From Amycolatopsis alba DSM 44262 (GTDB lineage Bacteria; Actinomycetota; Actinomycetes; Mycobacteriales; Pseudonocardiaceae): a DNA stretch of 64,000 nt. The stretch covers positions 7,649,605-7,713,604 of the forward strand of contig NZ_KB913032.1 in NCBI RefSeq assembly GCF_000384215.1, given 5' to 3'. Under the pieces are notes generated by a model. That model had not been told where the DNA came from. It ran no database searches and was given only the letters and a program-made list of their open reading frames with translations. The position numbers were made by a program, and so were the translations under genes. How positions within the stretch are numbered: the first letter of the stretch is position 1; every line of letters begins with the position of its first letter. This document shows positions 10,080 to 36,090 of this stretch, piece after piece.

Positions 10080-10153
10080 GGAGAAACCGCGATGGTGTTG
10101 CGCGGGGTCAACCGTTTTCACGAGATGCTCCTCTTCCTGTTCGCACAGCCGGG

Positions 10154-10292: not shown

Positions 10293-10552
10293 GAGAGCTC
10301 CTCCATTGCCGTGCGTTGTACGGCACCGAGTTCTCGGTGCGGGTCGTTCCTCTTCCAGTAAGCCCGCACCGGTCTCGCTGGCCAAGGTGTGTGTGACGTC
10401 CGGGTTGTTGCGGATCGGGGCACCGTTGAACGCGGCGGTCCTCTTCCGCGGCAGCTGGTACCAGTCCGGCGACTCGCACCCGATTGGCGCAATTCAACCG
10501 ACGCGCCAATGGGTAGTTCTTTGACCAGAGCCCGCCGAGGAGGGAGATCCGG

Positions 10553-20593: not shown

Positions 20594-23500
20594 CGAACTG
20601 CCCCGCCGGCGTCATCCGTGCCACCGGGCACGGCCGGATCGGTGGTGATTCCGCCGACCATGGTGATGAGTTCCGCAGTCTGTACGAGAGTCAGACCGTT
20701 GACGAGCAACCCGGACGGTGTTCGCAGACCGATCTCTGGCCGCGCCGCGCCCTCTGCGCGAGGCTCACGCGGGCCGCTCGAAGAGTCGGTGTCGGCCAGC
20801 GAGTACTCGATGATTTCGGCGACTTCACGTACGTGAGGCTCCTCCACGACGGTCAAGTGGTTCCCCGGCACGGTGTGGACGGCGACATCACCGGTGCAAA
20901 AATGCTTCCACGCAGTCTCGTGTGATTTCACTTCGCCGTCGATCTCGTCGTTCGCGCGCAAATAGAGCAGGTCGACCGGTATCGCCGAGGGCTGATGGTG
21001 GCGGATCGCTTCGACGGTTGCCGCCATGACCTCGCGCGCACGCGGGTCGTGGTCCATCGCGCTACGCATCGCCTGCCAAGCCCGCGGTGCAGCGGAGCGG
21101 TATCCGTCGAACACGCTCAGGACATCGGCAGGGTCCGGCAGGCCGTGACGCTCCTCTGGCGATGGAGTGTCGATCATGACGATCAAGCTCACTTCGTGAC
21201 CGCGGTCGAAGAGTTGGCGTGCCATTTCCTGGGCGATGAGGCCACCTGCGGAATGGCCCCCGAGCACGTACGGGCCTCGCGGATCTGCATCAAGGAGTTC
21301 AGTGACGTTGCGCTCCGCTATGTCCTCGATCGTGGACGGGATGGACTCGCCGGGTTCGAGTCCGTGAGCGCGGAAGCCTTGCACTGTGCGGCTTTGCTGG
21401 AGGCAGTTGACCAGTTCGCGGTACGAAAAGACCGTTCCGCCGAGCGGCGGGAGGAGGTACAGGGACGTCCGTGTCGCCGGTCCGGTTCGCAGTGTCGTCA
21501 TCAGCGGCGACGTGGGTTCCGCGGCTTTGATCGACTCGGCGAGTGCTCCGAAGGTCGAGTGCTCCAGCAGGGTGTGTGTGGACAGCTGAGTTCCGAGTTG
21601 TTCCTGGATGCGGCGGCGGAAGACGATGGCCAGATGCGAGTCACCTCCGGAGCGGAAGAAGTCGTCCGCGGGGTCGACGTCGTCCACACCGAGCAACTCA
21701 CACCACAGTTCGGCCAGTGGTTCCGCCGTTGGAGCCTGTCGCCGGTCCACCGACGTCGATGTGACATTGTCCCGGCGCAGGTCCGGAGGTTGTTGAGCTG
21801 TTCTGGTGAACACGGTGCCGGGAAGGGCGACCTTGTGGGGCGGGTCATGGTGGACGGCGTTCCAGTCGATCCGGACGCCATGGCACCATAGGCGGGCTGC
21901 CAGGCAGGCCATCTGATGAGATTCCGAGGTGTCGGCGAGGAGGGGCGCGATCGCTAGTCGTTCGTCTCCGTAGTCGGGGTGAAGCTCTGCTGACTGGACG
22001 AGCGATTTCCCCGGGCCGACGTGGACCAGCGTTAGCTCAGGGTCTTTGAGCAAGGTCGTCAAACTGTCGGCGAGGCGCGCGGTGTTGCGAAGGTGTCGCG
22101 CCCAGTATCCGGGATCCGGCGCTTCCGCGGGGTCCAGCCAGCTTCCGGTGAGCCCGGAAATCATCGGGATCTTCGGCCTGCGGTGCGCCAGCGTGGCGCC
22201 GTATTCTTCGAGTTTGCCGAGGGCGGGCAGCATCGTCGCGGAATGGGCTCCCGCCGCGACCGCCAGTCGCCGCACGTTGACGTCGTCCTGGCGAAGCTTC
22301 TCCTCCAGCCGCGAAACATCGTCGACAGGGCCGGAAACCACGCAGTTCTTGGCACTGTTGACGCAGGCGAGCGAAAGTTTCTCGCCGAGGCGGGAGCGCA
22401 GCTCGTCTTCTCCCAGTCCGACGACCAGTGACGCCGCGGGTGGGAGTTCGTCGATCAGGCGGCCGCGGAGGGCTATCAAACCGACCATTTCGGGCAGGGT
22501 GAGGATCCCGGCGACGTGAGCGGCGACGCATTCGCCGAGGCTGTGTCCGAGCAAGGCCGCCGGGGCGATACCCCAAGAACGCAACAACGCCGTGAGCGCC
22601 ACTTCGGTAGCGGCGATACTCGACAAGTTCAGGGATGGGCGCAGGAGTGCTTCGGACGCGCTATCGGTCGACGAGAACGTGAGGGCCCGCAAGTCACAGT
22701 CGAGCTCTGCATCGAAAAGCTCCGCACTGGCGTCGAACGCGTGGCGAAACGCTGCCTCGCTTTCGTAGAGTTCGCGCCCCATGAACGGGTGCTGTGAACC
22801 TCCGCCAGGGAAGAGGAAGGCCACTTTCCCGGTACGGACCTGAGCGGTGAAGACGTCCTGGTGTCCTGGAGTCGTCAGCAGCTCGGACGCGTCCTGGCGG
22901 GTTTTGCACACGGCGGCTCGTCGGTGGTCGAATACAGCGCGGCCTCGTTGGAGTGTGAAGGCGACGTCAGCCAGGGCCGTGTCGTCGGCCTGGGTCGAGA
23001 GGTGCTCGGCCAACCGGGCGCAGGTACGATCCAGCGCCGAGGATTCGCGGGCCGATACGGGCAGAACCTGAGTCCGCGCACGACGGGCTGGCGTGTCCCT
23101 CCTGGGGCGGGGTGCTTCCTCGACAACGAGGTGCGCGTTGGTTCCACCGAGTCCGAACGAACTGATACCGGCTCGACGGGGCCCGTCCGACTCGGGCCAG
23201 TCGATCGTCCGCGAGTTGACCTCGAAGGGGCTCTGGTCGAGTTCCAGATGCGGATTGGGGTGCCGGAAGTGCACCACGCCGGGTATTCTCCGGTGCCGGA
23301 GGGCCAAGACTGCGGTGATCAGGCCGGTGACGCCTGACGCGACGTCCAGGTGCCCCAGGTTGCTCTTGACGGAGCCGAGAACGCATTTGGTCTTCCGGGG
23401 CCCGGAGTCGCCAAAGACGCGCGTGAGCGCCCTTACTTCGATGGCGTCACCCAAGGCAGTGGCCGTTCCATGCGCCTGGACATACTCGATGGAGCCGGGG

Positions 23501-26220
23501 TTCACTCGAGCCGCGCGGTGCGCGGCTTCGATGACCTCGATCTGTCCCTCCACACTCGGCGCGGTGAAGCCGGCTTTGCGAGAGCCGTCGTTGTTGACGG
23601 CCGACCCGCTGATCACGGCGTGGATCATGTCGCCGTCTGCGAGCGCGTTGTGGAGTCGTTTGAGAACTACGACGCCCGCACCTGCCGCGGGCACTGTGCC
23701 CTGGCTGTCGGAGTCAAACGGACGGCAGTGGCCATCGGGGGACAGCGCTCCGCCCTCTTCGTAGGTGTAGGACTTCGTACCGGGCGCGGGCAGACTGACG
23801 CCGCCGGCAAGCGCCATCTCGCAGTCGCCTGCCAGGAGGCTCCGGCAGGCCATGTGCACCGCCACCAGCGACGTGGAGCACGTCGTGTTGATGGTCACCG
23901 CCGGGCCACGCAGCCCCAGGCGATGAGCGGTGTGCGCGCAGAGCATCTGCATGGGGTTCGCGAACTCGGCGCGTTGCCGGGCCGCGCCGTCACCTTCGGT
24001 GGCTCGGATGACGTCCAGCCAGTGGTAGGGCACTCCGGTACCCCCGAACACGCCGACGGACGCCGTGATCGAGTTCGGCGCGTAGCCCGCGTTCTCGAGG
24101 GCTTCCCATACCGTCTCCAGGAAAAGCCCCTGCTGTGGATCGAACTCCCGGGCGTCCGCCGAGGTGAAGCCGAACAGGGCCGCGTCGAACTCTCCGGCTC
24201 CTGGTGGCCATCCGTGGGTGCCCACCTCACGGACCCCCGACTGCTCAGCGGTCGTGCCGGATGTGTCCGTGGAGTGTTCGAGGCCTTCCTGGCATTGCTC
24301 GAGCATCTCCCACAGTTCACCGACGTCGGCCGCACCGGGGAACCGGCCGGCCATGCCGACGATCGCGATCCCCGTCGTGTCGGAGCCGTTCGGATCGTCG
24401 TCTTGAGCGTCCGTCGGCTTCGGGGACTCGATCGTCCCGATGTGCTCGGCGAACTGCCGGAGCGTCGGGTGCTCGAACAGGGCGGTGACGTCGAGTTCCA
24501 CGCCGTGCCTGTCGGCCAACAGCTTGTGGAGACGTAACGCGATGAGTGAGGTTCCGCCCAGCTCGAAGAAGGGTACGTCGATGTCGATCGGCGAAGTATC
24601 CAGTACCTCAGCCCACAAGCTCTGCAGAGTCTCGACCGTGACGGGCTCGCGCTGTTCCTTGACCTCGTTCGATTCCCGCTCTCTTTCAGCCGGCGTCCCG
24701 AGATCGGCGGGCACCGGCAGGGCACTGCGGTCCATGTATCCGAGCGGGGTCAGCGGGATCTCCGGTACCGGAACGTAGAGTGACGGAAGCATTGCTCTCG
24801 GCAGGCGCTCCTGGAGGTACGATCGAAGCTCAGCGACCTGCAGGTGCTCGTCACCGGCCTCGACCACGTAGGCAACCAGTCGTTGTATTCCTGCGGAGTT
24901 CTCTCTCACCATGGCCGCGCAGAGCTTCACCGCCGGATGCGCGCCGAGCGTCGCCTCGATCTCGGACAATTCGATGCGGACCCCGTGCAGTTCGACCTGG
25001 CTGTCCGCTCGTCCGACGTAGAACAGGTCGTCATCCTCGCCGCGCCGGACCAGGTCCCCGGTTCGGTACATGCGTTCACCGGGTGAGCCGAAGGGGCACG
25101 CGACGAAGCGCTCCGCCGTCATCGCCGGTTGCCCGAGATAGCCTCGAGCGACCACCGGCCCAGCGATGTACAGTTCCCCCACGGTATCCGGGTTCACTGG
25201 AGCCAAAGCCGAGTCGAGCAAGTACATCCGTGCTCCGTCGACCGGTGGCCCCAACGGTGGGTCGCCCGCGCCGGAGAAGACGTCGGACAGGGTCGTCGCG
25301 ATGGTCGTCTCAGTCAGACCGTAACCATTGACGATCCTCACCCGGTGAGACCACTCCCGGACGAGTTCGCCCGACCAGGCTTCCCCCGCCAGTACGACGG
25401 TGAGTTCCGGCGAGGGCACCTCGTATCCTTCGAGCAGCGCTAGTACGGCCGGTGGTAGCACAACGTTGCTGATCCTGCGGTCTCGCAACGTCCTGGCCAG
25501 GGCCGGTCCCGGTTGCAGGTCGTCCGTGTCCGCTACGACGAGTGTGGCTCCCAGCACCAGCGCCATGAGTTCCAGCACGAAAACGTCGAAGCTAGGCGAC
25601 GCGTACTGCAAGACCCTGCGGCCCGGCTCCACCCCCAACTGCCTGCGCACTGTTCGCGCGACACCGGCAAGTCCGGCATGGGTGACGGCGACGCCCTTGG
25701 GCCTGCCGGTCGATCCGGACGTGTAGAAGACGTAGGCCACACTTCCGATGTCGATGGCGACAGATCGGCGTACACCAGGCGCTTCCTGCTGTACATCCGC
25801 CGCGGACGGCTCGGCGAGTATCGATTCGGGAGTGATGACAGGGCATTTCGGTCGTACAGGGAAGTTGTCTTCATCCGCGATCAGCATCGTCGCCGACGCG
25901 TCGGTGAGCATCGCTTCGATCCGCCGAAACGGAAGACGAAGGTCGATCGAGAGGAACGCCGCACCGGCCTTGCTGATCGCCAGAACAGAGACAACAAGTT
26001 CCAACGAGCGCGGTAGCGCGACAGCGACGATGTCTTCGGGCCCCACGCCGTGGCTCGTCAACCGCTCCGCCAGCCGGCCGGCGCGTGCGTCGACTTCGGC
26101 ATAGGACAGGTGCCGTGTGCCCAGTTCGATCGCGACCTCATCCGGACGCTGTGCCACCTGAGCGGCGAACAGGTCCGCCAGTGACGCCTGCTCGCCTGGC
26201 TCGTCAAGATTCCGTTTCAT
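20590..26220 (-). CDS. Hybrid NRPS-PKS: A-PCP-KS-AT-ACP-TE
   Basis: 1876 aa from the ATG at 26220; the frame is open further upstream into the neighbouring gene. A domain about 15-505: A3 FYTSGSTGRPKG, A5 GYGLTETT. The A10 segment reads LGYMDR instead of NGKVDR, so the catalytic lysine is a tyrosine. PCP Ser near 558 (LGGTSL). KS about 615-1040 with TTCSTSL (Cys781), AHGTA (His917) and KSNLGH (His957), all active residues present. AT about 1130-1500 with GHSLGE (Ser1227) and AGAHS where HAFH/YASH is usual. ACP near 1590 (SGGDSH). Type I thioesterase about 1620-1850 with GHSAGG. It should add one malonyl-type unit to an aminoacyl group and release it. A C-terminal tail of about 60 aa follows the TE. 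Confidence 0.92.
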   Translation of the reverse strand: MKRNLDEPGEQASLADLFAAQVAQRPDEVAIELGTRHLSYAEVDARAGRLAERLTSHGVGPEDIVAVALPRSLELVVSVLAISKAGAAFLSIDLRLPFRRIEAMLTDASATMLIADEDNFPVRPKCPVITPESILAEPSAADVQQEAPGVRRSVAIDIGSVAYVFYTSGSTGRPKGVAVTHAGLAGVARTVRRQLGVEPGRRVLQYASPSFDVFVLELMALVLGATLVVADTDDLQPGPALARTLRDRRISNVVLPPAVLALLEGYEVPSPELTVVLAGEAWSGELVREWSHRVRIVNGYGLTETTIATTLSDVFSGAGDPPLGPPVDGARMYLLDSALAPVNPDTVGELYIAGPVVARGYLGQPAMTAERFVACPFGSPGERMYRTGDLVRRGEDDDLFYVGRADSQVELHGVRIELSEIEATLGAHPAVKLCAAMVRENSAGIQRLVAYVVEAGDEHLQVAELRSYLQERLPRAMLPSLYVPVPEIPLTPLGYMDRSALPVPADLGTPAERERESNEVKEQREPVTVETLQSLWAEVLDTSPIDIDVPFFELGGTSLIALRLHKLLADRHGVELDVTALFEHPTLRQFAEHIGTIESPKPTDAQDDDPNGSDTTGIAIVGMAGRFPGAADVGELWEMLEQCQEGLEHSTDTSGTTAEQSGVREVGTHGWPPGAGEFDAALFGFTSADAREFDPQQGLFLETVWEALENAGYAPNSITASVGVFGGTGVPYHWLDVIRATEGDGAARQRAEFANPMQMLCAHTAHRLGLRGPAVTINTTCSTSLVAVHMACRSLLAGDCEMALAGGVSLPAPGTKSYTYEEGGALSPDGHCRPFDSDSQGTVPAAGAGVVVLKRLHNALADGDMIHAVISGSAVNNDGSRKAGFTAPSVEGQIEVIEAAHRAARVNPGSIEYVQAHGTATALGDAIEVRALTRVFGDSGPRKTKCVLGSVKSNLGHLDVASGVTGLITAVLALRHRRIPGVVHFRHPNPHLELDQSPFEVNSRTIDWPESDGPRRAGISSFGLGGTNAHLVVEEAPRPRRDTPARRARTQVLPVSARESSALDRTCARLAEHLSTQADDTALADVAFTLQRGRAVFDHRRAAVCKTRQDASELLTTPGHQDVFTAQVRTGKVAFLFPGGGSQHPFMGRELYESEAAFRHAFDASAELFDAELDCDLRALTFSSTDSASEALLRPSLNLSSIAATEVALTALLRSWGIAPAALLGHSLGECVAAHVAGILTLPEMVGLIALRGRLIDELPPAASLVVGLGEDELRSRLGEKLSLACVNSAKNCVVSGPVDDVSRLEEKLRQDDVNVRRLAVAAGAHSATMLPALGKLEEYGATLAHRRPKIPMISGLTGSWLDPAEAPDPGYWARHLRNTARLADSLTTLLKDPELTLVHVGPGKSLVQSAELHPDYGDERLAIAPLLADTSESHQMACLAARLWCHGVRIDWNAVHHDPPHKVALPGTVFTRTAQQPPDLRRDNVTSTSVDRRQAPTAEPLAELWCELLGVDDVDPADDFFRSGGDSHLAIVFRRRIQEQLGTQLSTHTLLEHSTFGALAESIKAAEPTSPLMTTLRTGPATRTSLYLLPPLGGTVFSYRELVNCLQQSRTVQGFRAHGLEPGESIPSTIEDIAERNVTELLDADPRGPYVLGGHSAGGLIAQEMARQLFDRGHEVSLIVMIDTPSPEERHGLPDPADVLSVFDGYRSAAPRAWQAMRSAMDHDPRAREVMAATVEAIRHHQPSAIPVDLLYLRANDEIDGEVKSHETAWKHFCTGDVAVHTVPGNHLTVVEEPHVREVAEIIEYSLADTDSSSGPREPRAEGAARPEIGLRTPSGLLVNGLTLVQTAELITMVGGITTDPAVPGGTDDAGGAVR

Positions 26221-26261: not shown

Positions 26262-27032
26262 CTATACGGCCTTCATCACGACTTTTCCGAGTGTCGTGAA
26301 CGTCGCTTCGATTGAACTTCCCTCGCCGAATTTCAGGGCCTCCGCCCACGCGCCTGCGAACACCATGTTGTCCGCGCCAAGGCGCTCGTCCTGTTCCGCG
26401 AGGGCTCGCGCCAGCCACGCCACAGATTCCGCGGGGTCGCCGAGCACAGCCGTGCTGCGACCACGACGAGTTTCTCCGTCCACCGTCAGGATCATCTCTT
26501 CGTTTTCCAGTTGCACGAGTTCCCGTCTGACGGGATCACCCAGGACCATGTACCGGGAGACCGAGTTGTCCGCGATGATGTCGACTTCTTCGATAGCCCA
26601 GTCGGCGGTACAGGAGTCGAGAACTTCCAGAGTCGGTACGAGGTGAGTGGTGGCGGCCCAGACATCCTCCGGCGTCGTGCCGTGACCCGGCAACTCCGCG
26701 TTCAAGATGAAGCCGACCTCTCCTTCCACGAGCGGGAGCATCAGCTTCCCGACGGACAACTCCGCCTGGCTGGCCAGTATCATGTCCTCGGTGACGTAGC
26801 CGAAATGAGGGGCTGTCAAGTTGAATTCTCGCCGAATTGCCGCACTTGCCCCGCCCACTTTGAATCCGACCAGTACATCACCTTCGTCTTCATCCATCTC
26901 CCGAAGGATTCGCTGAATCAAGTACCCGTCCTGCCCGGTCATGTCCGGATACCTGCTGGATATCGGGCTGACCGGCGTCCGGTTCAGCCGCGCTCCGCGG
27001 AGTTCACCTGCCAGTTCACGGTGGATCGACAT
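26262..27032 (-). CDS. 2-hydroxypenta-2,4-dienoate hydratase / 2-oxo-4-pentenoate hydratase-like enzyme
   Basis: 256 aa from the ATG at 27032, with AGGAG upstream and 4 nt after the aldolase stop. It belongs to the MhpD/DmpE hydratase-decarboxylase group of the fumarylacetoacetase superfamily: VGFKVGGASAAIRREFN, PHFGYVTEDMIL, LVEGEVGFIL with the metal-ligand E-x-E pattern, and LEVLDSCTADW. The known reaction is hydration of 2-hydroxypenta-2,4-dienoate to 4-hydroxy-2-oxovalerate, which is reversible. With the aldolase and dehydrogenase directly upstream it completes the lower meta-cleavage trio. In this NRPS operon it may instead run in the dehydrating direction to a 2-oxopentenoate; that is inference. 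Confidence 0.85.
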   Translation of the reverse strand: MSIHRELAGELRGARLNRTPVSPISSRYPDMTGQDGYLIQRILREMDEDEGDVLVGFKVGGASAAIRREFNLTAPHFGYVTEDMILASQAELSVGKLMLPLVEGEVGFILNAELPGHGTTPEDVWAATTHLVPTLEVLDSCTADWAIEEVDIIADNSVSRYMVLGDPVRRELVQLENEEMILTVDGETRRGRSTAVLGDPAESVAWLARALAEQDERLGADNMVFAGAWAEALKFGEGSSIEATFTTLGKVVMKAV

Positions 27033-27036
27033 GGAA

Positions 27037-28062
27037 TCACTGCTCCTGTCCGGCGGAAATCGATGTGGCGACTTCGAGGATGACGTCCTCTTGGCCTGCC
27101 ACCACTCTGCGCTCACCCAGCTTCATCAAGATCTGACGAGGATCCACTTTGAACTTCGCGGCCGCCTTCCTCGTCGGACCGGCGAATCCCGAGAAGACAC
27201 CGGCTATCCCGCTGGTGATGGTGATCGCGTCGTTCGTGGGGACCCGCTTCACGAACGTGGAATGCGCCAACTCCGCCGCGTCGAGAGATTCGAAGAACCT
27301 CAGCCGGGTTTTGATCGCCGAGTTGCGAACGTTCGCCGCCAGCAACTCCAGTGCCGCGTTGCCCGCACCCGCGCCGAACCCGCGAGCGGTGACGTCGATG
27401 ATCGACGCCCCCGACTCGATCGCGGTCAAGGCGTTGGCTACGGCGAGACCGCGGTTGTTGTGCGCGTGAAACCCGACCTCGATGTTCAACCGGTCGACCA
27501 GTGTACCGACCTTCTCCTGCACGTCGTAACGCGTGTAGGCGCCGGCCGAATCCATAAGGATCACCGCCTTCGCGCCGTAGCCCTGCATCAGCTTCGCCTG
27601 CGCGAGCAATTCGTCGGCGGAAATCATGTGTGTCATCAGCAGGATGCCTTTGACCTCCACCCCCATGGAATCGAGAAGCGTCATCTGCTGCTGGGTGACG
27701 TTCGCCTCGGTACAGTGAGCACCCACCCGGACTTCGTCGACGCCGCAGTCGATCGCCGGTTTGAGATGCCGCTCGATACAGGAGAACCCCGGGAGTGACA
27801 TCACTCCGAGCCGTGCGTTTCGCAGCTGTGCTTTGGCCGTACGAAGCATCGTCAGGTCGTCCACGGCCGCCAGGCCGATCTGGATCGACGAGGCTCCGAG
27901 TCCGTTCCCGTGGCCTACCTCGACGACGTCGACACCGGCGCGATCGGCGGCCTGTGAGTACGTTCTGATGTCCTCGATCGATAACTGGTGAGCGACCGCG
28001 TGACTTCCGTCCCGCAGGGTCGAGTCGCAGATGGTGACCGGTACCTCACCATGCTTCACCAT
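27037..28062 (-). CDS. 4-hydroxy-2-oxovalerate aldolase
   Basis: 341 aa, the usual length for MhpE/DmpG/BphI. The N-terminal TIM-barrel motif CDSTLRDGSHAVAHQ carries the metal-binding Asp. VVEVGHGNGLG, GFHAHNNRGLAVANAL (metal His pair) and ARGFGAGAGN are all typical. It splits 4-hydroxy-2-oxovalerate to pyruvate and acetaldehyde, or makes it in reverse, using a divalent metal, and normally channels acetaldehyde to its partner dehydrogenase. The ATG at 28062 overlaps the end of that dehydrogenase by 7 nt, as expected for a complex. Confidence 0.93.
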   Translation of the reverse strand: MVKHGEVPVTICDSTLRDGSHAVAHQLSIEDIRTYSQAADRAGVDVVEVGHGNGLGASSIQIGLAAVDDLTMLRTAKAQLRNARLGVMSLPGFSCIERHLKPAIDCGVDEVRVGAHCTEANVTQQQMTLLDSMGVEVKGILLMTHMISADELLAQAKLMQGYGAKAVILMDSAGAYTRYDVQEKVGTLVDRLNIEVGFHAHNNRGLAVANALTAIESGASIIDVTARGFGAGAGNAALELLAANVRNSAIKTRLRFFESLDAAELAHSTFVKRVPTNDAITITSGIAGVFSGFAGPTRKAAAKFKVDPRQILMKLGERRVVAGQEDVILEVATSISAGQEQ

Positions 28063-28958
28063 GTCAGCTCCCTCGCTCGCTCCTCCGCCAACGCGACGGC
28101 GGCGCAGGAGATCACATCCAGGTTTCCCGCGTAGTCGGGCAGCCAGTCCCCGAGACCCTCCACTCGCAAGGTCAACTGCACCGTGTTGCCTGAGGACACG
28201 GGTGGGACGACGACCTGGTATCCGGGCACGTACGACCGGATCTTGGTCTCCATCTCGGAGACGCGCTTGCGCAGCAGGTCAAGGTCGATCTTCTTCGATG
28301 TCGTCGCCGCCACGGCGTTGCGCATCACCACACCTGGCTTGGCCGGATTCAAGACCAGTATCGTCTTGGTTTCGTTCGTGTGGCAGAACTGGCGGGTCGC
28401 GTTCTCGGTCGCGACGACGTACTCGTCGATGTTGGCCCTCGTGGCGGGTCCCACGCTGGCCGACGAGGTGGTGGAAACGATCTCCAGGTAGTCGAGGCCG
28501 TCCGTCGCGTCGCATATGGCTCGAGCCATGGGGACCGCGGCCTGGCCACCACAGGTGACCATGCTCGCGTACTGGAGCTCCAGGCACTCGGCCAGGTTCA
28601 GCACTGGGATGCAGAATTTGCCGAGCTTCGCAGGCGTGAGGTCTATGAACGACTTTCCCGTCGGCTCGAGAGCCCGCCAGTGCCGGGCAGCGCCGTCAGC
28701 GGTCGACACGTCGAGCACCATGTCTATCTCGTCGATGTGGTCGAGGACGGCGTCGATTCCCTCGATACTCGTGGGGACACCGCGGCGGGTCGCCTCCAAC
28801 AGCCCAGGAGAGTCAGGTCGACGACCCGCGAACAACACGCACCGCAGGAATCTCGAACCCAGTACCTTGCACAGCAGGTCCGTCCCCAACGCACCCGTGC
28901 CGACTATTCCGATGCGAACCGGAGTGGGCCGGGCACGCTCTCTGTTCCTCGTTGTCAC
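28056..28958 (-). CDS. Acetaldehyde dehydrogenase (acylating)
   Basis: 300 aa from the GTG at 28958 (GGAGG 6 nt upstream), matching the usual 300-315 aa of MhpF/DmpF/BphJ. Rossmann motif IGIVGTGALGTDLL, catalytic Cys in SMVTCGGQAAVP, then ATRANIDEYV and HTNETKTILVLNPA are diagnostic. It interconverts acetyl-CoA and acetaldehyde with NAD. Here acetyl-CoA reduction would feed the aldolase. It follows the reductase-ended NRPS by 26 nt. Confidence 0.93.
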   Translation of the reverse strand: MTTRNRERARPTPVRIGIVGTGALGTDLLCKVLGSRFLRCVLFAGRRPDSPGLLEATRRGVPTSIEGIDAVLDHIDEIDMVLDVSTADGAARHWRALEPTGKSFIDLTPAKLGKFCIPVLNLAECLELQYASMVTCGGQAAVPMARAICDATDGLDYLEIVSTTSSASVGPATRANIDEYVVATENATRQFCHTNETKTILVLNPAKPGVVMRNAVAATTSKKIDLDLLRKRVSEMETKIRSYVPGYQVVVPPVSSGNTVQLTLRVEGLGDWLPDYAGNLDVISCAAVALAEERARELTW

Positions 28959-28984
28959 TCGAATCCTCCGTCGCGGGTCATGGA

Positions 28985-31900
28985 TCAGGTGATGTAGCCG
29001 CAGCCCTCGAGATAGTCGAGGTAACGATCGATCATGCCGGTGTCGACGGGTGGGCATTCCGGCCCTCCCTCGGACAGCGCGGCCTCAAAATTGGTTCGAC
29101 CGTGGGCCGGCACCGGATTGGAGAGATTCTCCGGTCTGGCCGTCAGATAGGGGAGAAACGGGGTCAAGGGGAACGTCGGATCAGCGAGTGATTCGTCCAC
29201 GCAACGACGAGCCCACTCCTCGTAGGGCAGCTCGGTCACCGAACGACCCCTGGCACGCAGTCGTTCGATGAGCAGGGCGGAGTCGGCGGGCTGTCCGTTG
29301 GTCACGTGGAACACGCGGCCTCGGGGGTGCTCGCAGCGAACAAGATGCATCAGTGCGTCTGCGACGAAGTCAACCGGTACGAGATTCAGTGGATAACGCA
29401 CCGCGGGTGCGATCTCTGATTCCGCAGCCGTCTTCATAAGGGCGGTCAGTTGCGTGCCGGTACTCCAAATCCCGCGACCTGTCGTGCCGCTGATCTCGTG
29501 CGGACGGTAAATGCTGCCGGGCAATCCGTGGGTGAAGGCCTGGCTGAGAAGGCGCTCGGCAACCCACTTGGTCTGTGTGTATCCCGTCTCGAGCCCGCTG
29601 GGATCCGGCAGAGGTTCATCCTCGGAGACGAAGCGTTTTCCGGACAGGGCACTGATACTGGACACCAGGTGCACGGCCTTGCGCCTGTGAGTAGTGGCCA
29701 ACCGAAGCACCGTGTGCATACTGTCGACGTTCGCCGGCCGCAAGGCTGTGTACGGATAGGCGAAGTTGACGTGCGCTCCGTTGTGGACGATCACTTGAAC
29801 GTTTCCGCACAACTTGTCGAACACGCGCCGAGGCAGGCCGAAGTCAGCCTGGGAAAGATCGCCGGGCAACGCGACAACCCGACTTCCGACGATGTCGCCA
29901 GAGAGACCGTAGCGGCGAAGCCCGGCTACGAGGCGAGTTCTCGCGGCCGATGCGTCCTGCGCGCGAACCAGGCAGTGGATCGTGGCGTTCGTGTCCCGGA
30001 TGAGCCGATCGAGGAGAAAAGGACCGAGGAACCCGGTGGGGCCGGTGAGAAAGATATTTCGAGGACTCATGAGGTCCGCGACCACCGGCAGCCCGAAGTC
30101 GAGATCGTCGCGCAGGCGCGCCTCGGCCCACAGATCCGGCCGGTGCCGTCCATTGGTAAGAGCGGAGGTGCCGATGGCGGCACGATCGACCGCGTGCGCG
30201 AAGTTCCGCACCGAGGGTCCTTCAAGCATCGCTCCGACCAGGGCCGGCCCTTGCTCGGCTCGTATGCCGAGCCTCTCCTGTATGGAAGCGACGGCTTGCA
30301 CCAACTGCATCGACTGCCCGCCACGGGCGAAGAAGTCGTCGTGTGGCCCCAGCGGCCCCACCGTGAGCAGATCCCCCCACACCTCGGCAACCGTGCGCTC
30401 GGTGCTCGAGGCGAACTCCGCAGCCGACCTGACAGAGAGTGTCGCGGGCTCCGGCGACGGCAGCCTGGATCGGTCCACCTTGCCGTTGCTGTTCAACGGC
30501 AGTTCGTCCAAAACCAGTATCTGGGCCGGGACCATGAATCCCGGCAGCCGGTCCCGGACATACTCGGAAAGCATGTCGGTGAAGGGTGCGTGATCGCCAC
30601 AGGGAGGTTCGTCGAAGACCGGTTCACGCACCGATGCGACCCACGCGACAAGCCGGTCATGCCCGGACGCCGACGGCCTGATGTCGGCGACGACACCGCT
30701 GACCTGCGGATGGGTCGACAAGACCGCCTCGACTTCGCCAAGTTCGATGCGATAGCCGTTGATCTTGACTTGCCGGTCGATGCGGCCGAGGAACTCGAGG
30801 GAGCCGTCAGGCAGCCATTTGACCTTGTCGCCGGTACGGAAGAGCCGTTGATCAGATCTCATCAGGTCGACGAACGGGTTGGTGACGAACCGCTCCGCCG
30901 TCCGCTCGGGATCTCCATGATATCCGACGGCCAGGCCATCTCCGCCGGACCACAGTTCGCCGGGCTCTCCGGTACCTGCCAGACTTCCGTCCGGCCGGAC
31001 GACGTAGCTGGTGGAGTTCGCGGTCGGCCGTCCGATCGGCACCGTGGTTCCCGCCTCCACGTGTTCGACGACCTGCCACGTGCACACGATCCCGGTCTCG
31101 GTCGGGCCGCATGAGTTGACGAGACATTGAGGCCTCCCCCGGTCGAGTACCGCTCGAACGACCGCCGGGTTGATCACATCGGCGCACGAGATCAGGTAGC
31201 GCAACCGGGCGAACATGTCCGGCCGGTGCGAGCCGATCTCATTGAACACACCGGCGCTGAGCACCAGAATCGTGGCTCGCTCGGCTTCGAGCTTCTGTGC
31301 GAACAAGTTCGGTGACAGCAGGACATGCGGATCGATCAACACCAAACGAGCCCCGTTGAGCAGTGCGCCGAAGACTTCCATGCAGGACACGTCGAATGCC
31401 AGACTCGACGTCCCCAGCCACACGTCGTCAGGTCCGACTGCCAGCCCATCCCAGCCGACCACCAGACGAGCCGGAACCCGGTGAGGCACGCTCACCGCCT
31501 TCGGCTGCCCGGTGGTGCCGGAGGTGAACATGACGTAGGCGGTCGTTCCGCCATCCGGGCCCGCCACCTGTGGATTCACTTCCCGCTCATCCGCGGGAGG
31601 CACTCGCCAGGAAACCTTCCTGCACTCCTCACTGCCCCGGAGTGCCTTGCCTGGCTCATCGAGTACCACTCGCACTCGGGCCTGCTCACACATGCTCGCG
31701 AGGCGAGAGCGCGGCAACGCGGGGTCGAGCGGCACGTAGACCGCACCGGCCTTGAGTGTCCCCAGAATCGCGGCGATGGCCGCGATTGACGTGCGCGCAG
31801 CGACCCCGACGTGATCGCCGACCGTGATCCCCGCGGCGATCAACCGCGACGAAATGGCATTCGCCATGCGATTCAAGTGCCGATACGAGACGGTGAAGTC

Positions 31901-32053
31901 GTCACCGGTGATCGCAGGGAGATCCGGGACCTGCTTCACCTGCTCCTCAAACAGTCTGTGCAGAGTCGCGTGTCGTGGATAGCAAGTCTTCGTGTCGTTC
32001 CATTCGGAAATCTGCTCTCGAAGGTCTTTGCCATACTCGGCCACCATAGTCAC
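28985..32053 (-). CDS. NRPS A-PCP-reductase
   Basis: 1022 aa. A domain about 25-530: MFTSGTTGQPKA (A3), SCGPTETG (A5), FRTGDKV (A7), KINGYRIELGEVE (A8), NGKVDR (A10, Lys525). PCP about 545-615 with RGGQSMQL (Ser581). A thioester reductase domain fills about 660-1020: LTGPTGFLG (NADPH site, 670-677) and GYTQTKWVAE (Tyr825, Lys829), as in carboxylic acid reductases and NRPS R domains. It should activate one carboxylic or amino acid and release it as an aldehyde or alcohol. The hand-read pocket code D-V-M-V-I-C-S-I-V-K matches nothing I know. GTG at 32053 (AAGGGG 4 nt before) or ATG at 32047 are both possible starts. First gene of the minus-strand operon. Confidence 0.92.
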   Translation of the reverse strand: MTMVAEYGKDLREQISEWNDTKTCYPRHATLHRLFEEQVKQVPDLPAITGDDFTVSYRHLNRMANAISSRLIAAGITVGDHVGVAARTSIAAIAAILGTLKAGAVYVPLDPALPRSRLASMCEQARVRVVLDEPGKALRGSEECRKVSWRVPPADEREVNPQVAGPDGGTTAYVMFTSGTTGQPKAVSVPHRVPARLVVGWDGLAVGPDDVWLGTSSLAFDVSCMEVFGALLNGARLVLIDPHVLLSPNLFAQKLEAERATILVLSAGVFNEIGSHRPDMFARLRYLISCADVINPAVVRAVLDRGRPQCLVNSCGPTETGIVCTWQVVEHVEAGTTVPIGRPTANSTSYVVRPDGSLAGTGEPGELWSGGDGLAVGYHGDPERTAERFVTNPFVDLMRSDQRLFRTGDKVKWLPDGSLEFLGRIDRQVKINGYRIELGEVEAVLSTHPQVSGVVADIRPSASGHDRLVAWVASVREPVFDEPPCGDHAPFTDMLSEYVRDRLPGFMVPAQILVLDELPLNSNGKVDRSRLPSPEPATLSVRSAAEFASSTERTVAEVWGDLLTVGPLGPHDDFFARGGQSMQLVQAVASIQERLGIRAEQGPALVGAMLEGPSVRNFAHAVDRAAIGTSALTNGRHRPDLWAEARLRDDLDFGLPVVADLMSPRNIFLTGPTGFLGPFLLDRLIRDTNATIHCLVRAQDASAARTRLVAGLRRYGLSGDIVGSRVVALPGDLSQADFGLPRRVFDKLCGNVQVIVHNGAHVNFAYPYTALRPANVDSMHTVLRLATTHRRKAVHLVSSISALSGKRFVSEDEPLPDPSGLETGYTQTKWVAERLLSQAFTHGLPGSIYRPHEISGTTGRGIWSTGTQLTALMKTAAESEIAPAVRYPLNLVPVDFVADALMHLVRCEHPRGRVFHVTNGQPADSALLIERLRARGRSVTELPYEEWARRCVDESLADPTFPLTPFLPYLTARPENLSNPVPAHGRTNFEAALSEGGPECPPVDTGMIDRYLDYLEGCGYIT

Positions 32054-32468
32054 GTAACCCCTTCATTCGAACCATTGCTGATACTAGACATCCCTCCACG
32101 CTTCGTCCGGCCGTTGTTCCGCGCCACGGGACATGAAGTTCCTGTGTTTCGTCTCGCGGAACAACGGGTTGATCGGCGACGTGGTTCACTCATACTGGAC
32201 AAGGAGAATCGACCCCTACGCAGGAAGCGAGGCTCGGATCTTAGCCCGGCACGAGTACGGCGCCTTACTCGAAACGGCTGGTCCCGGCCAGCCGAACGGC
32301 ATAGGCGATGTACCGACAGGGAAACGGGGAGCGATGACCCGCCCGCACAAGTACGACGACACGGAACAGTCAAGTCAGGGTGAAATCGGTGTTCTTGAGG
32401 TCGCGGAAGCGATCATCGACACCTTCAATACCCGTAGGGACCATCGTCAGGACGTGGAGGAAGCGAAC
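32054..32468. promoter_or_regulatory. Divergent promoter region of the NRPS cluster
   Basis: About 415 nt separate the two outward-reading halves of the cluster. An open frame on the plus strand starts at 32133 but lacks family features until the ATG at 32469. No operator palindrome stands out to me. Confidence 0.5.
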
Positions 32469-33179
32469 ATGGCAACCCTGGACGTACCCGATAAAGTGGA
32501 GCAGTCGCAGAAGAGCAAAAGCGACGTTCGGCTGGCGGCCGACGAACTCGTCGCGTCGTTGAAAGACGTTGCCGTCAAAAATGACTTCCTCGTCAAGGCT
32601 CAGGAAGGCAAGCTGACCGAAGCCAATATTCACACCCTGCTTCAGATCGAAGACAAAGGCTTGGCCGGGCTGCTGGGACCGGTCACCGCCGCCGCGATCA
32701 AGTACGCCGACCGTCCCGAAACCGCGGATGCCCTGCTGGACCTGGTCAAGCTTCTTCGCGCCGATCAGCAATTGGCCCATGCCGCGGCCTTGTCTTACGG
32801 CACCCCGCCGGAGCGCTTTCCCGGCGAACACCTCAACGTCAACGCGATCCCGTACTCGTACGTGGGGTTCATCACGTGGATGGCGGGCTATCGCAATGCC
32901 GCGGAGTTCGCGCTCATGGCGTACCTTGACATCTCACTATGGCACCAAACTTGCGTATTGCTGACGCCGGCGCTGGAGAACCATCCCGGCGGACTGCCTC
33001 GGCCCGTGGTGGACTACTTCGCCAAGTACGTGGAGCGTCCGGCCACACTTGACAGGTTGATCGCCATCGCCGAGGAGGCCGTCGAGGCCGGAGTGAATCT
33101 TCAGCAGGCAATCGGCACCGCGAAGCTGACCGAATACTTCGTCGCCGAGATCTGGCGAGTCGCCGCGGAAGATCGGTGA
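32469..33179 (+). CDS. TenA/haem-oxygenase-like fold protein
   Basis: 236 aa from the ATG at 32469, with GGAGG upstream. All-helical. Spaced acidic and His residues recall the TenA/haem-oxygenase-like superfamily: TLLQIEDKGLAGLL, LRADQQLAHAAAL, then AEFALMAYLDISLWHQ and LTEYFVAEIWRV. That group includes thiaminase-like enzymes and di-iron oxidases that act on amino or fatty acids in biosynthetic clusters. Metal ligands cannot be proven by eye. It starts the plus-strand half of the cluster, ahead of a P450, so an oxidative role on a building block is inferred. Confidence 0.6.
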   Translation: MATLDVPDKVEQSQKSKSDVRLAADELVASLKDVAVKNDFLVKAQEGKLTEANIHTLLQIEDKGLAGLLGPVTAAAIKYADRPETADALLDLVKLLRADQQLAHAAALSYGTPPERFPGEHLNVNAIPYSYVGFITWMAGYRNAAEFALMAYLDISLWHQTCVLLTPALENHPGGLPRPVVDYFAKYVERPATLDRLIAIAEEAVEAGVNLQQAIGTAKLTEYFVAEIWRVAAEDR

Positions 33180-33368
33180 CCTCCCGGTCCTTCCGGCAGC
33201 GCGGACCAGCGCTACCCGCTTCGGTGACAGGATGTGACGACGTCCGTAACTTGCGGGAAGGACAGGGAGTCTGACCCTTCGGGGCCACCGCAGACCCAGT
33301 ACGGGTGGCCCCACCAGGGGAATCGCAACAGAAGCCACGTCGCAGGTCGACCTTCGGGGAGCTGTTTT

Positions 33369-34751
33369 GTGAGGTCATCACATAGAGGAAACCACGTCGC
33401 CAAGTTGGGAGTGTCGCCCTGGCGGCTACCTTTGGTGGGGAATGCTTGGCACCTTCTTGTCCATCCGTTGACGTTTCTCCGGCAGCAGCGCGAACTCGGT
33501 GACATCGTGGAGTTTCGCCATGGCAACCGGCGGGTCTACTTCGTCAACGACCCTGTGCTGGCACACGAGGTCCTCACTGGCCAGCGCGCCAATTTCCCCA
33601 AGGGGGGCCCGGTCATCAATGCCGCCCGAGCCCTGGGCAGAAACGGCTTGTCCACCACGACCGACGAAAGTCTTCATCATCGGCAACGTCGATTGATGCA
33701 ACCGCTGTTCCATCATTCACGGTTCCCGGCCTACATCGCCGCCATGCGCGAGACGGTCGAAGAGATCACGTCGTCATGGCGAGAAGGTGAAAAGGTTCGC
33801 ATCGACAGTGTCGCGTACCAGATTTCGTCCGCGGTTCTGTCGCGATGCCTGTTCTCGGGGAAGCTGGGCTCAAACGCCACGAGAGACTTCATGACTCTTT
33901 ACCCCAGCGTCGTCGGGGGCATCGGTAGGCGAGCAACGCTGCCGATGCCCTGGTTGCATCGGCTGCCCACGGCCGCCAACCGTCGGTACACCCGCGACCT
34001 CGCGACCATTCATCGGGTGACTGACCAGCTCATCGCCGATCACGCCGCCGGTGACGAGACCTATGACGACATCCTGTCCGCCCTTCTCGAGGCCAGGGAC
34101 GACGACACCGGCAAGACCATGTCGGAGTCTCAGGTTCACGACGAGGTGGTCACTCTCATCAGCGCGGCCAGCGAAACGACGGCGCAGACGCTGTCGTGGG
34201 CTCTGCGTGTCCTCGCGAAGGACACCGAACTCGATCGGCGGGTGGCGGCGGAACTGCAGGGCGTACTGGCGAATCGGGCCCCCAGGCATCAGGACCTCCA
34301 GGAACTGCCGCTGCTCAGCGCAGTCGTGTCCGAGACGTTGCGCCTGTACCCACCCCTGTGGCTCGTGTCCCGTTACGTCCCGAATGAGACCGAGCTAGGT
34401 GGTGTCCTGCTCCGGGCCGGCAGTGAGGTGTACATCAGCGCATTCGCCAATCATCACGACGCCGAGCTCTTCCCGAGTCCCGAGGTCTTCGACGTCACCA
34501 GGTGGCTGCCCGGGGCGCCGACCCCCGGCAGAGGCGCCTACATACCTTTCGGCATGGGCACCCGTAAGTGCATCGGCAACGAATTCGCCTTGGCGGAGCT
34601 GATGACGACGCTCGCCATCTTTCTTCAACGGTGGCGGCTGTCTCCACAGCACGGCGGGCGGCTGAGCAAGCCGAAGGTCGCGTTCACTTACGGTACGGGA
34701 CCGTTCACGCTTGTCGCAAGCCAGCGCCGCTCTGGTCCTCCTGAGCACTGA
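33369..34751 (+). CDS. Cytochrome P450
   Basis: 460 aa from the GTG at 33369, placed because GGGGAG lies 7 nt upstream and the proline-rich SPWRLPLVGNAWHLL anchor follows shortly. I-helix ISAASETTAQT lacks the usual AGxDT but keeps acid and Thr. E-x-x-R is SETLRLYPPLW. The haem loop is FGMGTRKCIGNEFA with the ligand Cys. The sequence is of the self-standing CYP102/CYP110-like type. It probably hydroxylates the NRPS/PKS product or a precursor. It lies 189 nt after the TenA-like gene and 31 nt before the aminotransferase. Confidence 0.93.
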   Translation: MRSSHRGNHVAKLGVSPWRLPLVGNAWHLLVHPLTFLRQQRELGDIVEFRHGNRRVYFVNDPVLAHEVLTGQRANFPKGGPVINAARALGRNGLSTTTDESLHHRQRRLMQPLFHHSRFPAYIAAMRETVEEITSSWREGEKVRIDSVAYQISSAVLSRCLFSGKLGSNATRDFMTLYPSVVGGIGRRATLPMPWLHRLPTAANRRYTRDLATIHRVTDQLIADHAAGDETYDDILSALLEARDDDTGKTMSESQVHDEVVTLISAASETTAQTLSWALRVLAKDTELDRRVAAELQGVLANRAPRHQDLQELPLLSAVVSETLRLYPPLWLVSRYVPNETELGGVLLRAGSEVYISAFANHHDAELFPSPEVFDVTRWLPGAPTPGRGAYIPFGMGTRKCIGNEFALAELMTTLAIFLQRWRLSPQHGGRLSKPKVAFTYGTGPFTLVASQRRSGPPEH

Positions 34752-34782
34752 TCTTCCGAACCACCCACGCGGGGGCAAGCAT

Positions 34783-36090
34783 ATGAGCAGGGAACCAAAG
34801 AACCAGGTGCTGCGGTCAGACACCCTGCACCGGTCGTTATCCGATCCAGCCGTCACCTCGATGGGGTTCCTCACCGAGGTCGCCGGCCGCTATCCGGAGG
34901 CGATCTCGTTCGCGCTGGGCCGTCCGTCGGACGTGTCTTTCGAGGTCCCCGCGTTGCACCGCTACCTGAGCCGGTTCGTCAGTCACTTGATCGACGATCT
35001 CCACTACGGCGAAGCCGGCGTCCGGGACGTACTTTTCCAGTACGGCAGCCCCAAAGGCTTCATACAGCACCTCATCGCGCGCAACCTTCACGTGGATGAG
35101 GGGATCGAGGTCGCCCCGGAGTCGATCGTGGTCACGGTGGGCTGTCAAGAGGCGCTCTTCCTGGTGCTGCGAACGCTGTCACGGGACCGGCGCGATGCGG
35201 TCCTGGCGATCTCGCCGACCTACATGGGGCTGACCGGAGCGGCAAGGCTGTTGGACATGCCGGTGCTGTCGGTCGACGGCGGCGTGGACGGCGTCGATGT
35301 GGCCGCGCTCCGAGAACGAGTGCGTTCCGCCCGGAGCGAGGGGCTGCGCCCTCGGGCGCTCTACATCATTCCGGACTTCGCCAACCCAGCGGGAGTGACG
35401 ATGCCGACCGCGTTGCGCCACGAACTGCTGGAAGTCGCGGACGCGGAGAACATCCTGTTGCTCGAAGACAATCCTTACGGCCTGTTCCGCACCACCGGCA
35501 GACGACCGCCGACGCTCAAGGCCCTGGACCCGGAGCACCAGGTGGTGTACCTCGGTTCGATGGCGAAGACGGTGTTCCCCGCGGCCAGGGTCGGCTACAT
35601 CGTGGCGGATCAGCCCGTGTTTCACGATCGCGGCGGGAACTCGCTGCTCGCGGACGAGCTGGCGAAGCTCAAGGGCGCGCTCACCGTGAACACGTCGTCG
35701 ATGGGCCAAGCGATCGTAGCCGGAAAACTGCTGGAAAACGACGGCAGCCTGCTGCGATCCAACACCGCCGAGATCTCGCTCTACCGCCGGAACCTCGAGC
35801 GGTTGCTGAAAGGTCTGGATCACCACTTTGGGGATGTGCCAGGTGTAGGGTGGAAGGCACCCGATGGCGGTTTCTTCGTCGTCGTCAGCATGCCCTTCCC
35901 AGCGGACGACACGCTGCTCGAGAAGTCGGCCCGTGAGTTCGGAGTGCTCTGGACCCCCATGAGCTACTTCTATGACGGGGAGGGTGGGCAAGCACAGCTC
36001 CGGCTCTCGTGCAGCGATCTCACCCTCGACGACATCGACGAGGGGCTGCGTCGTCTAGCCGCCTTGACGACCGCACGGTCGCAAACCTAG
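34783..36090 (+). CDS. PLP-dependent aminotransferase (class I/II)
   Basis: 435 aa from the ATG at 34783. Fold-type I signatures: SIVVTVGCQEALFL, YIIPDFANPAGVTMP, LLLEDNPYG, and the PLP lysine in YLGSMAKTVFPAARVGY. It resembles 2-aminoadipate/aromatic aminotransferases (LysN/MocR-like) without the GntR DNA-binding domain. In this cluster a plausible substrate is the 2-oxo acid made by the aldolase trio, giving 4-hydroxynorvaline or allylglycine for an NRPS; that is inference. It closes the plus-strand half of the cluster. Confidence 0.92.
   Translation: MSREPKNQVLRSDTLHRSLSDPAVTSMGFLTEVAGRYPEAISFALGRPSDVSFEVPALHRYLSRFVSHLIDDLHYGEAGVRDVLFQYGSPKGFIQHLIARNLHVDEGIEVAPESIVVTVGCQEALFLVLRTLSRDRRDAVLAISPTYMGLTGAARLLDMPVLSVDGGVDGVDVAALRERVRSARSEGLRPRALYIIPDFANPAGVTMPTALRHELLEVADAENILLLEDNPYGLFRTTGRRPPTLKALDPEHQVVYLGSMAKTVFPAARVGYIVADQPVFHDRGGNSLLADELAKLKGALTVNTSSMGQAIVAGKLLENDGSLLRSNTAEISLYRRNLERLLKGLDHHFGDVPGVGWKAPDGGFFVVVSMPFPADDTLLEKSAREFGVLWTPMSYFYDGEGGQAQLRLSCSDLTLDDIDEGLRRLAALTTARSQT

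Follow-up and report, generated by a model that had tools for sequence, protein, structure and literature searches.

Gene identities and operon organization

The 64-kb window (the whole stretch of DNA analyzed) carries genes for an acylating acetaldehyde dehydrogenase, a 4-hydroxy-2-oxovalerate aldolase and a hydratase/decarboxylase-family protein, flanked by A-T-R and A-T-KS-AT-T-TE megasynthase genes, all on the reverse strand (Table 1). The three enzyme families are those of the lower meta-cleavage pathway (MhpDEF, DmpEFG, BphHIJ), in which they work in the catabolic direction, in the degradation of aromatic compounds. What, then, does this trio do within a nonribosomal peptide synthetase (NRPS) operon? 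With moderate confidence, and from sequence comparison, we favor its being a cyclomarin-type building-block cassette without the C-methyltransferase, which would supply a 2-amino-4-enoic acid to the NRPS line.

Table 1. Coordinates and assignments of the cassette genes and their neighbors in the window.
Feature	Coordinates	Strand	Details
Acylating acetaldehyde dehydrogenase homologue	28056..28958	-	300 aa from GTG 28958; TIGR03215
4-hydroxy-2-oxovalerate aldolase homologue	27037..28062	-	TIGR03217
Hydratase/decarboxylase-family protein	26262..27032	-	256 aa from ATG 27032; TIGR03220 below cut-off
NRPS-like A-T-R (adenylation, carrier, thioester reductase)	28985..32053	-	Pfam, TIGR01746; code DVMVICSIVK
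Hybrid A-T-KS-AT-T-TE	20590..26220	-	Pfam; start ATG 26220; code DVLVVAGIAK
NRPS A-T-C	17492..20593	-	Pfam; code DAYFWGGTFK
HpgT-type PLP aminotransferase (class I)	34783..36090	+	Start ATG 34783; candidate last step
Probable TenA-fold protein paired with A-T-R	32469..33179	+	236 aa; ATG after GGAGGAAG
IclR-type regulator	15135..16031	+	PF01614 and PF09339
Cytochrome P450, terpene-oxygenase-like	33234..34751	+	PF00067, 239 bits; NF045812, 315 bits, below cut-off 800

The original prediction of a lower-pathway trio between two megasynthase genes was borne out. The aldolase passes NCBIfam TIGR03217 (342.9 bits, cut-off 286), the dehydrogenase passes TIGR03215 (305.7 bits, cut-off 282.25) and Pfam matches identify the neighbors; the hydratase is a family match only. 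The same prediction described overlaps that force co-translation, and here the layout differs. Dehydrogenase and aldolase truly overlap (7 nt, ATGGTGA), but the other three junctions that involve the trio or its flanks do not. The apparent overlaps at 29057/28985, 27116/27037 and 26418/26262 arose because the first start codon of each open reading frame was taken. Inferred starts that fit the homologous part of each protein place the dehydrogenase 26 nt after A-T-R (GGAGGA lies upstream; the frame counted from 29057 is too long), the hydratase 4 nt after the aldolase and A-T-KS-AT-T-TE 41 nt after the hydratase. A further overlap of 4 nt (ATGA) joins A-T-KS to A-T-C. Despite the fewer overlaps, the trio and the megasynthase genes form a compact, co-oriented operon.

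Aldolase and dehydrogenase

Alignments read by eye show that the aldolase signatures RDGxH and HxHNN are intact and that the VTCGGQ signature of the dehydrogenase is conserved; the catalytic roles of the signature residues in these enzymes and in the hydratase are presumed. The aldolase can be aligned to PDB 4lrs and 1nvm, and the dehydrogenase matches 7z3s and DmpF-type chains. By family, an aldolase-dehydrogenase complex with channelling is probable here, as in the meta-cleavage systems. These have Tyr at position 290 of the aldolase (BphI numbering), a stereocontrol site at which the window aldolase carries Phe. Phe occupies this site in 17 of 19 aligned rows, including that of the window; Tyr is retained only by the other aldolase of this genome (L002), and L107 has Cys. 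At the pocket positions Leu-87/Leu-89 of BphI, the window has Met-88/Leu-90 and the cyclomarin-like rows have Leu/Ile (assuming, as we do, that BphI and DmpG numbering differ by one residue). We rejected the pocket as a guide to the aldehyde, as these differences are too conservative to choose one.

The aldolase and the 80 nearest full-length rows among the matches listed (the best 120 of 8000 scored) form one starred branch with support 100/97, which also includes the cyclomarin-like rows. The tree comprised P0002, P0010-P0089, five more distant rows among the matches listed and ten locus copies. P0010, at 80% identity, belongs with P0011 and P0012 to the sister group of the window aldolase. 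A distinct aldolase/dehydrogenase pair occurs elsewhere in the genome, where the aldolase homologue is 37% identical. The cassette aldolase was found in none of 79 other genomes of the genus at E<=1e-110 (best other match, 6.2e-89). Five of the 79 have aldolases 45-47% identical, and at one of these five loci (L086) the gene adjoins dehydrogenase and hydratase-family genes.

Relative loci

We counted 12 distinct relative loci of the aldolase clade with readable context. Identical sequences were left uncounted (L102=L009, L103=L012 and L104=L008, from G899, G974 and G939; the hit in G936 is L010). Dehydrogenase, aldolase and hydratase genes are present in all 12, so the co-occurrence of the trio is beyond chance. 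A C-methyltransferase candidate occurs in 11, hydroxyphenylglycine genes with a halogenase in six, and a DMATS-type prenyltransferase beside the trio and methyltransferase in three. NRPS-type matches were found in nine (in L008, only pieces at contig ends); the other three loci are contigs of only 9.6-11.3 kb. The original prediction would have been weakened by relatives with the trio in a catabolic island lacking NRPS genes, and these nine loci place it near such genes. Because of this setting, and because the genome has a separate aldolase/dehydrogenase pair and further hydratase homologues elsewhere, the trio looks biosynthetic and appears to belong to the NRPS operon.

Outside the clade, and excluded from the 12, are 71 loci (L015-L085) with 47-55% identical aldolases. 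All encode aldolase and dehydrogenase, and one (L085) has the hydratase type of the window, together with a methyltransferase of the cassette family (32%).

Comparison with known biosynthetic systems

An excerpt of PMC8068612 describes the formation of the 2-amino-3,5-dimethylhex-4-enoate of cyclomarin from isobutyraldehyde and pyruvate via a four-gene cassette. The pathway run backwards, as originally proposed, stands insofar as the findings agree with a C5-type amino acid made from an aldehyde and pyruvate; the claim that no characterized cluster has this logic does not, since by that excerpt cyclomarin already uses it (PMC8068612). Shared by the two systems are the aldehyde plus pyruvate logic and the setting in an NRPS cluster. 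We take the four genes to be cymE-H of Salinispora arenicola CNS-205, with gene-to-step assignments that are our assumption, and the cassette enzymes presumably belong to the same families as the window trio. The window differs in lacking a SAM methyltransferase of the cassette family and a prenyltransferase match, and in its assembly line. At the sequence level the comparison runs through three cyclomarin-like relatives (L006, L010 and L014): their aldolases are 67-68% identical to that of the window, but for the hydratases identity is no higher than 38-40%.

In the hydroxyphenylglycine/halogenase clusters (L008, L009, L011, L012, L013 and L100/L101), dehydrogenase, aldolase and hydratase genes stand in one row, like those of the window; NRPS genes are present in L011 and L100/L101. 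Unlike the window, these clusters have genes for a methyltransferase, HPPD, HMO, prephenate dehydrogenase and a halogenase. A second precedent is presumably nikkomycin, in which we understand NikA/NikB (SanN/SanM), an acylating dehydrogenase and an aldolase, to act biosynthetically before a transaminase. That route, we assume, makes pyridylhomothreonine and includes no hydratase. Our literature searches found no paper joining nikkomycin with aldolase and acetaldehyde dehydrogenase, and none joining allylglycine, nonribosomal peptide synthetase, aldolase and biosynthetic gene cluster. An excerpt of PMC13397446 contains no cluster information.

The short aldolase-hydratase gap leaves out the SAM methyltransferase gene expected there in a cyclomarin-type cassette. 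No match to the cassette family was found in the window at E<=1, and the genome has nothing beyond four partial matches (26-38% identity). Other SAM methyltransferases are encoded in the window (8718-9521, 44141-44986, 57680-58897 and 61956-62852), and one of these could in principle replace the missing enzyme.

Proposed pathway

From enzyme families and signatures, the aldolase clade, recurrence in all 12 relative loci and the cyclomarin precedent (as excerpted from PMC8068612), we infer each reaction and its direction, as well as the aldehyde, transaminase and receiving A domain. The dehydrogenase would reduce an acyl-CoA to an aldehyde, which the aldolase would join to pyruvate to form a 4-hydroxy-2-oxoacid. 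Acetaldehyde is one candidate among others for this substrate. The hydratase, acting in reverse, would remove water to give a 2-hydroxy-2,4-dienoate/2-oxo-4-enoate. Methylation at C3, as in cyclomarin-type clusters, would be skipped. An aminotransferase, perhaps the HpgT-like enzyme, would then produce the 2-amino-4-enoic acid, and one of the three A domains would load it. With acetyl-CoA as the starting acyl-CoA this amino acid would be allylglycine, and with isobutyryl-CoA it would be 2-amino-5-methylhex-4-enoic acid. Alternatively, the output may be the 4-hydroxy precursor of the 2-amino-4-enoic acid.

The window is thus probably a variant of cyclomarin-type logic in which one of four cassette genes is absent and an unfamiliar assembly line is fed. 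If so, the cyclomarin building-block route is modular, with a dehydrogenase-aldolase-hydratase core reused with or without methylation across cluster kinds. It would open alkene-bearing amino acids to genetic work, and the aldolase clade could mark such clusters among the many that are unread. A bolder suggestion, which we make tentatively, is that a methyltransferase-free cassette branch uses acyl-CoA and pyruvate for de novo synthesis of L-allylglycine, or of a different 2-amino-4-enoic acid that is unbranched or prenyl-type, and that the unusual A-T-R/A-T-KS-AT-T-TE/A-T-C line with its TenA-like partner builds this residue, which carries a chemical handle, into a new natural-product scaffold.

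Aminotransferase

The originally predicted aminotransferase was recovered as a class I enzyme with the start given in Table 1. We assign it to the HpgT-type sequence family: at least 119 other homologues among the matches listed are 56-65% identical, and many of them carry the name (S)-3,5-dihydroxyphenylglycine transaminase. Enzymes of this type usually function in arylglycine formation. The window enzyme may make an arylglycine or other residue; a housekeeping transaminase would then aminate the 2-oxoacid of the trio, or the cluster would take it up as a keto acid. Besides family membership, this rather unlikely alternative gains from the wide spread of HpgT-type homologues in the genus (28 of 80 genomes at E<=1e-120, versus one of 80 for the cassette aldolase) and from the L101 homologue (59%), which sits in a hydroxyphenylglycine cluster. 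Yet arylglycine precursor genes were not found in the window (no HPPD or HMO match at E<=1e-2), and the lone FMN_dh-family gene seen (50988-52130) lies among mevalonate-pathway-like genes. A second HpgT-type aminotransferase is encoded elsewhere in the genome, beside Hpg-type genes. The arylglycine role is compatible with the dehydrogenase, aldolase and hydratase steps proposed above.

Hydratase-family protein

The hydratase-like protein matches four hydratase/decarboxylase models and passes none (best, TIGR03220, 2-oxopent-4-enoate hydratase, 155.6 bits versus a cut-off of 408.8); the genome has five TIGR03220 matches, all under the cut-off. No Pfam match was found at E<=0.001, and PDB 2wqt and 5d2i are matched. 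In the tree it falls into an unstarred group (84/93) with 11 cassette rows, and its own branch is long, 1.59 versus at most 0.43 in those rows. The other 19 rows share 17 invariant columns, and the window protein breaks two of these (R141C and G221D). Eleven of the 12 other cassette rows break none and L007 breaks one; several non-cassette rows break two to seven. The protein appears to be a fast-evolving copy. We rejected a broken gene, as the reading frame is intact.

The long branch, the four failed curated cut-offs and the broken columns mean that the dehydration step may be absent or different. The 4-hydroxy-2-oxoacid would then be transaminated to a 4-hydroxynorvaline-type amino acid. 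Loss of the methyltransferase, which removes the partner needing the dienol, points the same way, as does a Phaeobacter plasmid that carries aldolase, dehydrogenase, aminotransferase and ATP-grasp genes with no annotated hydratase within 10.5 kb. Nevertheless, the intact gene has kept its operon place and its product retains K, ExE and E (read by eye). We consider this alternative unlikely.

Assembly line and neighboring genes

Three A domains were identified by Pfam, with code positions assigned by motif; none of the three codes was matched to a substrate, and we take that of A-T-C to resemble Val/Ile codes. A-T-R stands first in the operon, which suggests an acceptor other than a dehydrogenase-derived aldehyde: the trio might extend by pyruvate an amino-aldehyde released by A-T-R. 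This is very improbable, because dehydrogenase and aldolase occur together in all 12 relatives, the R domain is unmatched in those loci at E<=0.1 (a 35-residue stretch in L007 has E 0.38), and an A-T-R paralogue elsewhere in the genome keeps a TenA-like partner with no trio in the 56 kb around it.

Insertion of a catabolic island into the operon by chance, as the enzyme family names might suggest, is hardly credible given that other genera also have these three genes close to NRPS genes, that the genome has a separate aldolase/dehydrogenase pair and hydratases, and that Tyr-290 has changed to Phe. A catabolic meta-cleavage operon would also be expected to include a ring-cleavage dioxygenase and a meta-cleavage hydrolase. 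The window has 227 listed ORFs, and no ring-cleavage family was detected in the 38 that were scanned. One alpha/beta-hydrolase match is 23 kb away (1423-3168), and a second corresponds to the TE of A-T-KS.

For the TenA-like protein, the database search recovered no homologue other than the protein itself, and Pfam gave no direct match. It is 38-40% identical to the protein beside the paralogous A-T-R, and its probable fold was assigned because that paralogue weakly matches PF03070 (TENA; 24.5 bits, cut-off 22). A structure predicted from the single sequence has a mean pLDDT of 43.4. The pairing with A-T-R points to unknown chemistry. The IclR-type regulator probably belongs to this cluster; a 51% identical homologue lies beside the paralogous A-T-R in L125. 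The P450 may belong instead to the neighboring terpenoid genes.

Cassette and operon layout

The trio of acylating dehydrogenase, aldolase and hydratase-like genes is a genuine biosynthetic cassette of a known kind, the cyclomarin type without its C-methyltransferase, and, judging from sequence, is probably functional. Genes on the minus strand occur in the order A-T-R, acylating dehydrogenase, aldolase, hydratase-like gene, A-T-KS-AT-T-TE and A-T-C (NRPS-type genes are named by domain order). The aldolase and dehydrogenase scored above the curated cut-offs of NCBIfam TIGR03217 and TIGR03215, respectively; the hydratase-like protein matched four related NCBIfam models, each under its curated cut-off. 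Start codons were chosen to agree with the homologous region, and purine-rich stretches precede them. With these starts there are gaps (26, 4 and 41 nt) at three junctions originally predicted to overlap, and true overlaps are limited to 7 nt between dehydrogenase and aldolase and 4 nt between A-T-KS and A-T-C. The operon is indeed compact, but the long overlaps arose largely from the choice of start codons, and to say that they force co-translation was too strong.

Coordinates of genes in the window and of A-T-R/TenA-like pairs elsewhere
Feature	Coordinates	Strand	Remark
A-T-R	32053-28985	-	first gene in reading order
Acylating dehydrogenase	28056-28958	-	
Aldolase	27037-28062	-	
Hydratase-like gene	26262-27032	-	
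A-T-KS-AT-T-TE	26220-20590	-	3' of hydratase-like gene
A-T-C	20593-17492	-	last in reading order
Other methyltransferase genes	8718-9521, 44141-44986, 57680-58897, 61956-62852		far from trio
A-T-R/TenA-like pair, window	28985-32053 with 32469-33179		
A-T-R/TenA-like pair, own-genome locus L125	15851-19756		
A-T-R/TenA-like pairs, locus L129	2288-6199 and 9111-12854		

The original work on the cyclomarin cassette is reportedly that of Schultz et al. in 2008, and we take its genes to be those named cymE-H. As described in the relevant passage of PMC8068612, this four-gene cassette starts from isobutyraldehyde and pyruvate. Cyclomarin is thus a characterised precedent, and the original statement that no characterised cluster has this logic therefore falls. 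Reasoning from cyclomarin chemistry, the hydratase run in reverse would give a dienol that is nucleophilic at C3, the methyltransferase would then methylate that carbon, and transamination would come last to yield 2-amino-3,5-dimethylhex-4-enoate. The building-block logic was known already; what is new is the variant without the C-methyltransferase, and the unfamiliar assembly line and product side.

The window differs from cyclomarin-type cassettes in the absence of this enzyme. Cassette-family methyltransferases had no match in the window at E<=1, and four partial matches (26-38% identical) genome-wide. The cassette enzyme matches general Pfam methyltransferase models and, weakly, 2-ketoarginine methyltransferase (51 bits, cut-off 425). 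Because the window contains four further methyltransferase genes, one of them could substitute for the missing one.

Relatives and distribution

Twelve distinct clade loci were readable: L006-L014 (nine), L097/L098, L100/L101 and L105 (on an Embleya replicon). All 12 have the dehydrogenase, aldolase and hydratase, and all except L007 a SAM methyltransferase of one family. NRPS-type matches were found in nine (in L008 as short pieces at contig ends only); the three loci without them are contigs of just 9.6-11.3 kb. A DMATS prenyltransferase lies immediately upstream in the cyclomarin-like loci L006, L010 and L014. Given this gene context, the check for a catabolic island in NRPS-free relatives did not refute the predicted biosynthetic role. 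Genes for HPPD, HMO, halogenase and prephenate dehydrogenase occur in six loci (L008, L009, L011, L012, L013 and L100/L101), a hydroxyphenylglycine/halogenase cluster family with the full cassette, including the methyltransferase.

The window sits within a 9.81 Mb single-contig genome. Among the best 120 of 8000 aldolase matches, the top 80 are 64-80% identical to the window copy, and past those identity is <=56%, bar two short fragments. In the aldolase tree, one starred branch (100/97) holds these 80 together with the window copy and eight locus copies, and within it the window copy groups with database rows P0010, P0011 and P0012 (100/98). None of the 79 other genus genomes encodes a near relative (best E-value 6.2e-89). 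Aldolases with 45-47% identity occur in five of them, in one case (L086) next to dehydrogenase and hydratase-family genes. Matches at E<=1e-110 occur in 1/389 other genomes of the family and 5/392 of the genus of genome G102; at E<=1e-90 there are none in a phylum-wide sample of 395 other genomes. Thus, the cassette is rare and patchy. Genus mates G065 (L086) and G005 (L088) have a different aldolase (46%) with a dehydrogenase, and L086 a hydratase-family gene. Aldolases with 47-55% identity (L015-L085, many phyla) occur together with the dehydrogenase in 71/71 loci.

Enzymes of the pathway

The part of PMC3962088 on BphI describes loss of C4 control when Tyr-290 is changed to Phe, and inverted control with a second change. 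This residue aligns with Phe-290 of the window aldolase. Phe occupies the position in 17 of 19 aligned aldolases, including four from outside the cassette clade; of the remaining two, the other aldolase of this genome (L002) has Tyr and L107, a Phaeobacter plasmid locus, has Cys. Since Phe replaces Tyr, product stereochemistry may be unlike that of the catabolic enzyme. The aldehyde is not readable from the pocket because the positions of BphI Leu-87 and Leu-89 are too conserved. Of L015-L085, the one locus aligned (L085) has the Phe-290 motif, as do three similar database rows.

The window hydratase is 38-43% identical to those of 11 cassette loci, which are 58-96% identical to one another, and 32% identical to that of L105. 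In the hydratase tree the window and the 11 cassette rows group at 84/93, without strong support, and the window end branch is 1.59 (<=0.43 for the 11); the L105 copy groups with three hydratases encoded elsewhere in the window genome. The alignment shows that K, ExE and E are retained. The window protein departs at two of 17 columns invariant across 19 other rows (R141C and G221D). Of the same 17 columns, 11 of the 12 other cassette rows break none and L007 one, and some non-cassette rows break 2-7. Either substrate preference shifted on loss of the methyltransferase or dehydratase activity is gone.

The gene at 34783 (TRANSAMINASE) belongs to the HpgT-type aminotransferase family, with homologues in 28/80 genus genomes, in L101 (59%, adjoining Hpg genes) and in L105 (47%). 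A second copy in the genome, at 5.36 Mb, adjoins HPPD/HMO/halogenase-like genes. Because no Hpg genes were seen in the window, that this enzyme acts on the 2-oxoacid from the trio is a fair guess, no more.

Assembly line and neighborhood

The assembly line has a single C domain and three A domains, whose specificity codes read DAYFWGGTFK, DVLVVAGIAK and DVMVICSIVK (last K assumed). The protein encoded at 32469-33179 has no database homologue except itself. At 6.26 Mb in the same genome, an A-T-R 51% identical to that of the window lies beside a 38-40% homologue of this protein, which has a weak TENA_THI-4 match (24.5 bits, cut-off 22). In genome G045 one A-T-R adjoins a 25% homologue, and a second is a single 1247-aa frame whose C-terminal part matches the TenA-like protein. 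No convincing R-domain match was found in the sequence available for the 12 cassette loci. Given the pairing elsewhere and these loci, A-T-R and the TenA-like protein form their own unit, separate from the trio; the pair is uncharacterised. The window cluster probably includes the IclR gene at 15135, since a 51% homologue adjoins the paralogous pair at 6.26 Mb. Also adjoining that pair (L126:1866-11241) are beta-branching-type genes: HMG-CoA synthase, enoyl-CoA hydratase, LnmK-like, ketosynthases and a PLP enzyme.

Window positions 36870-62852 are a dense terpenoid/polyketide neighborhood, with genes for a squalene-hopene-type cyclase, HAD phosphatase, P450, prenyl diphosphate synthase (matching NF041169, family 2 encapsulin cargo), GHMP kinases, an MVD-like protein, a KS-AT-DH-KR-ACP PKS and methyltransferases. 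Elsewhere, L107 (Phaeobacter piscinae plasmid pS26_80, 209-4733) has consecutive ATP-grasp, aldolase, acetaldehyde dehydrogenase and aminotransferase genes followed by an MFS gene, and resembles a small pathway for a gamma-hydroxy amino acid dipeptide. L106 (Streptomyces venezuelae NRRL B-65442 plasmid, 6223-12775), with FAH-family protein, dehydrogenase, aldolase, KAS III, ACP, CoA ester lyase, MaoC and GNAT genes, is apparently a further biosynthetic use of the dehydrogenase and aldolase.
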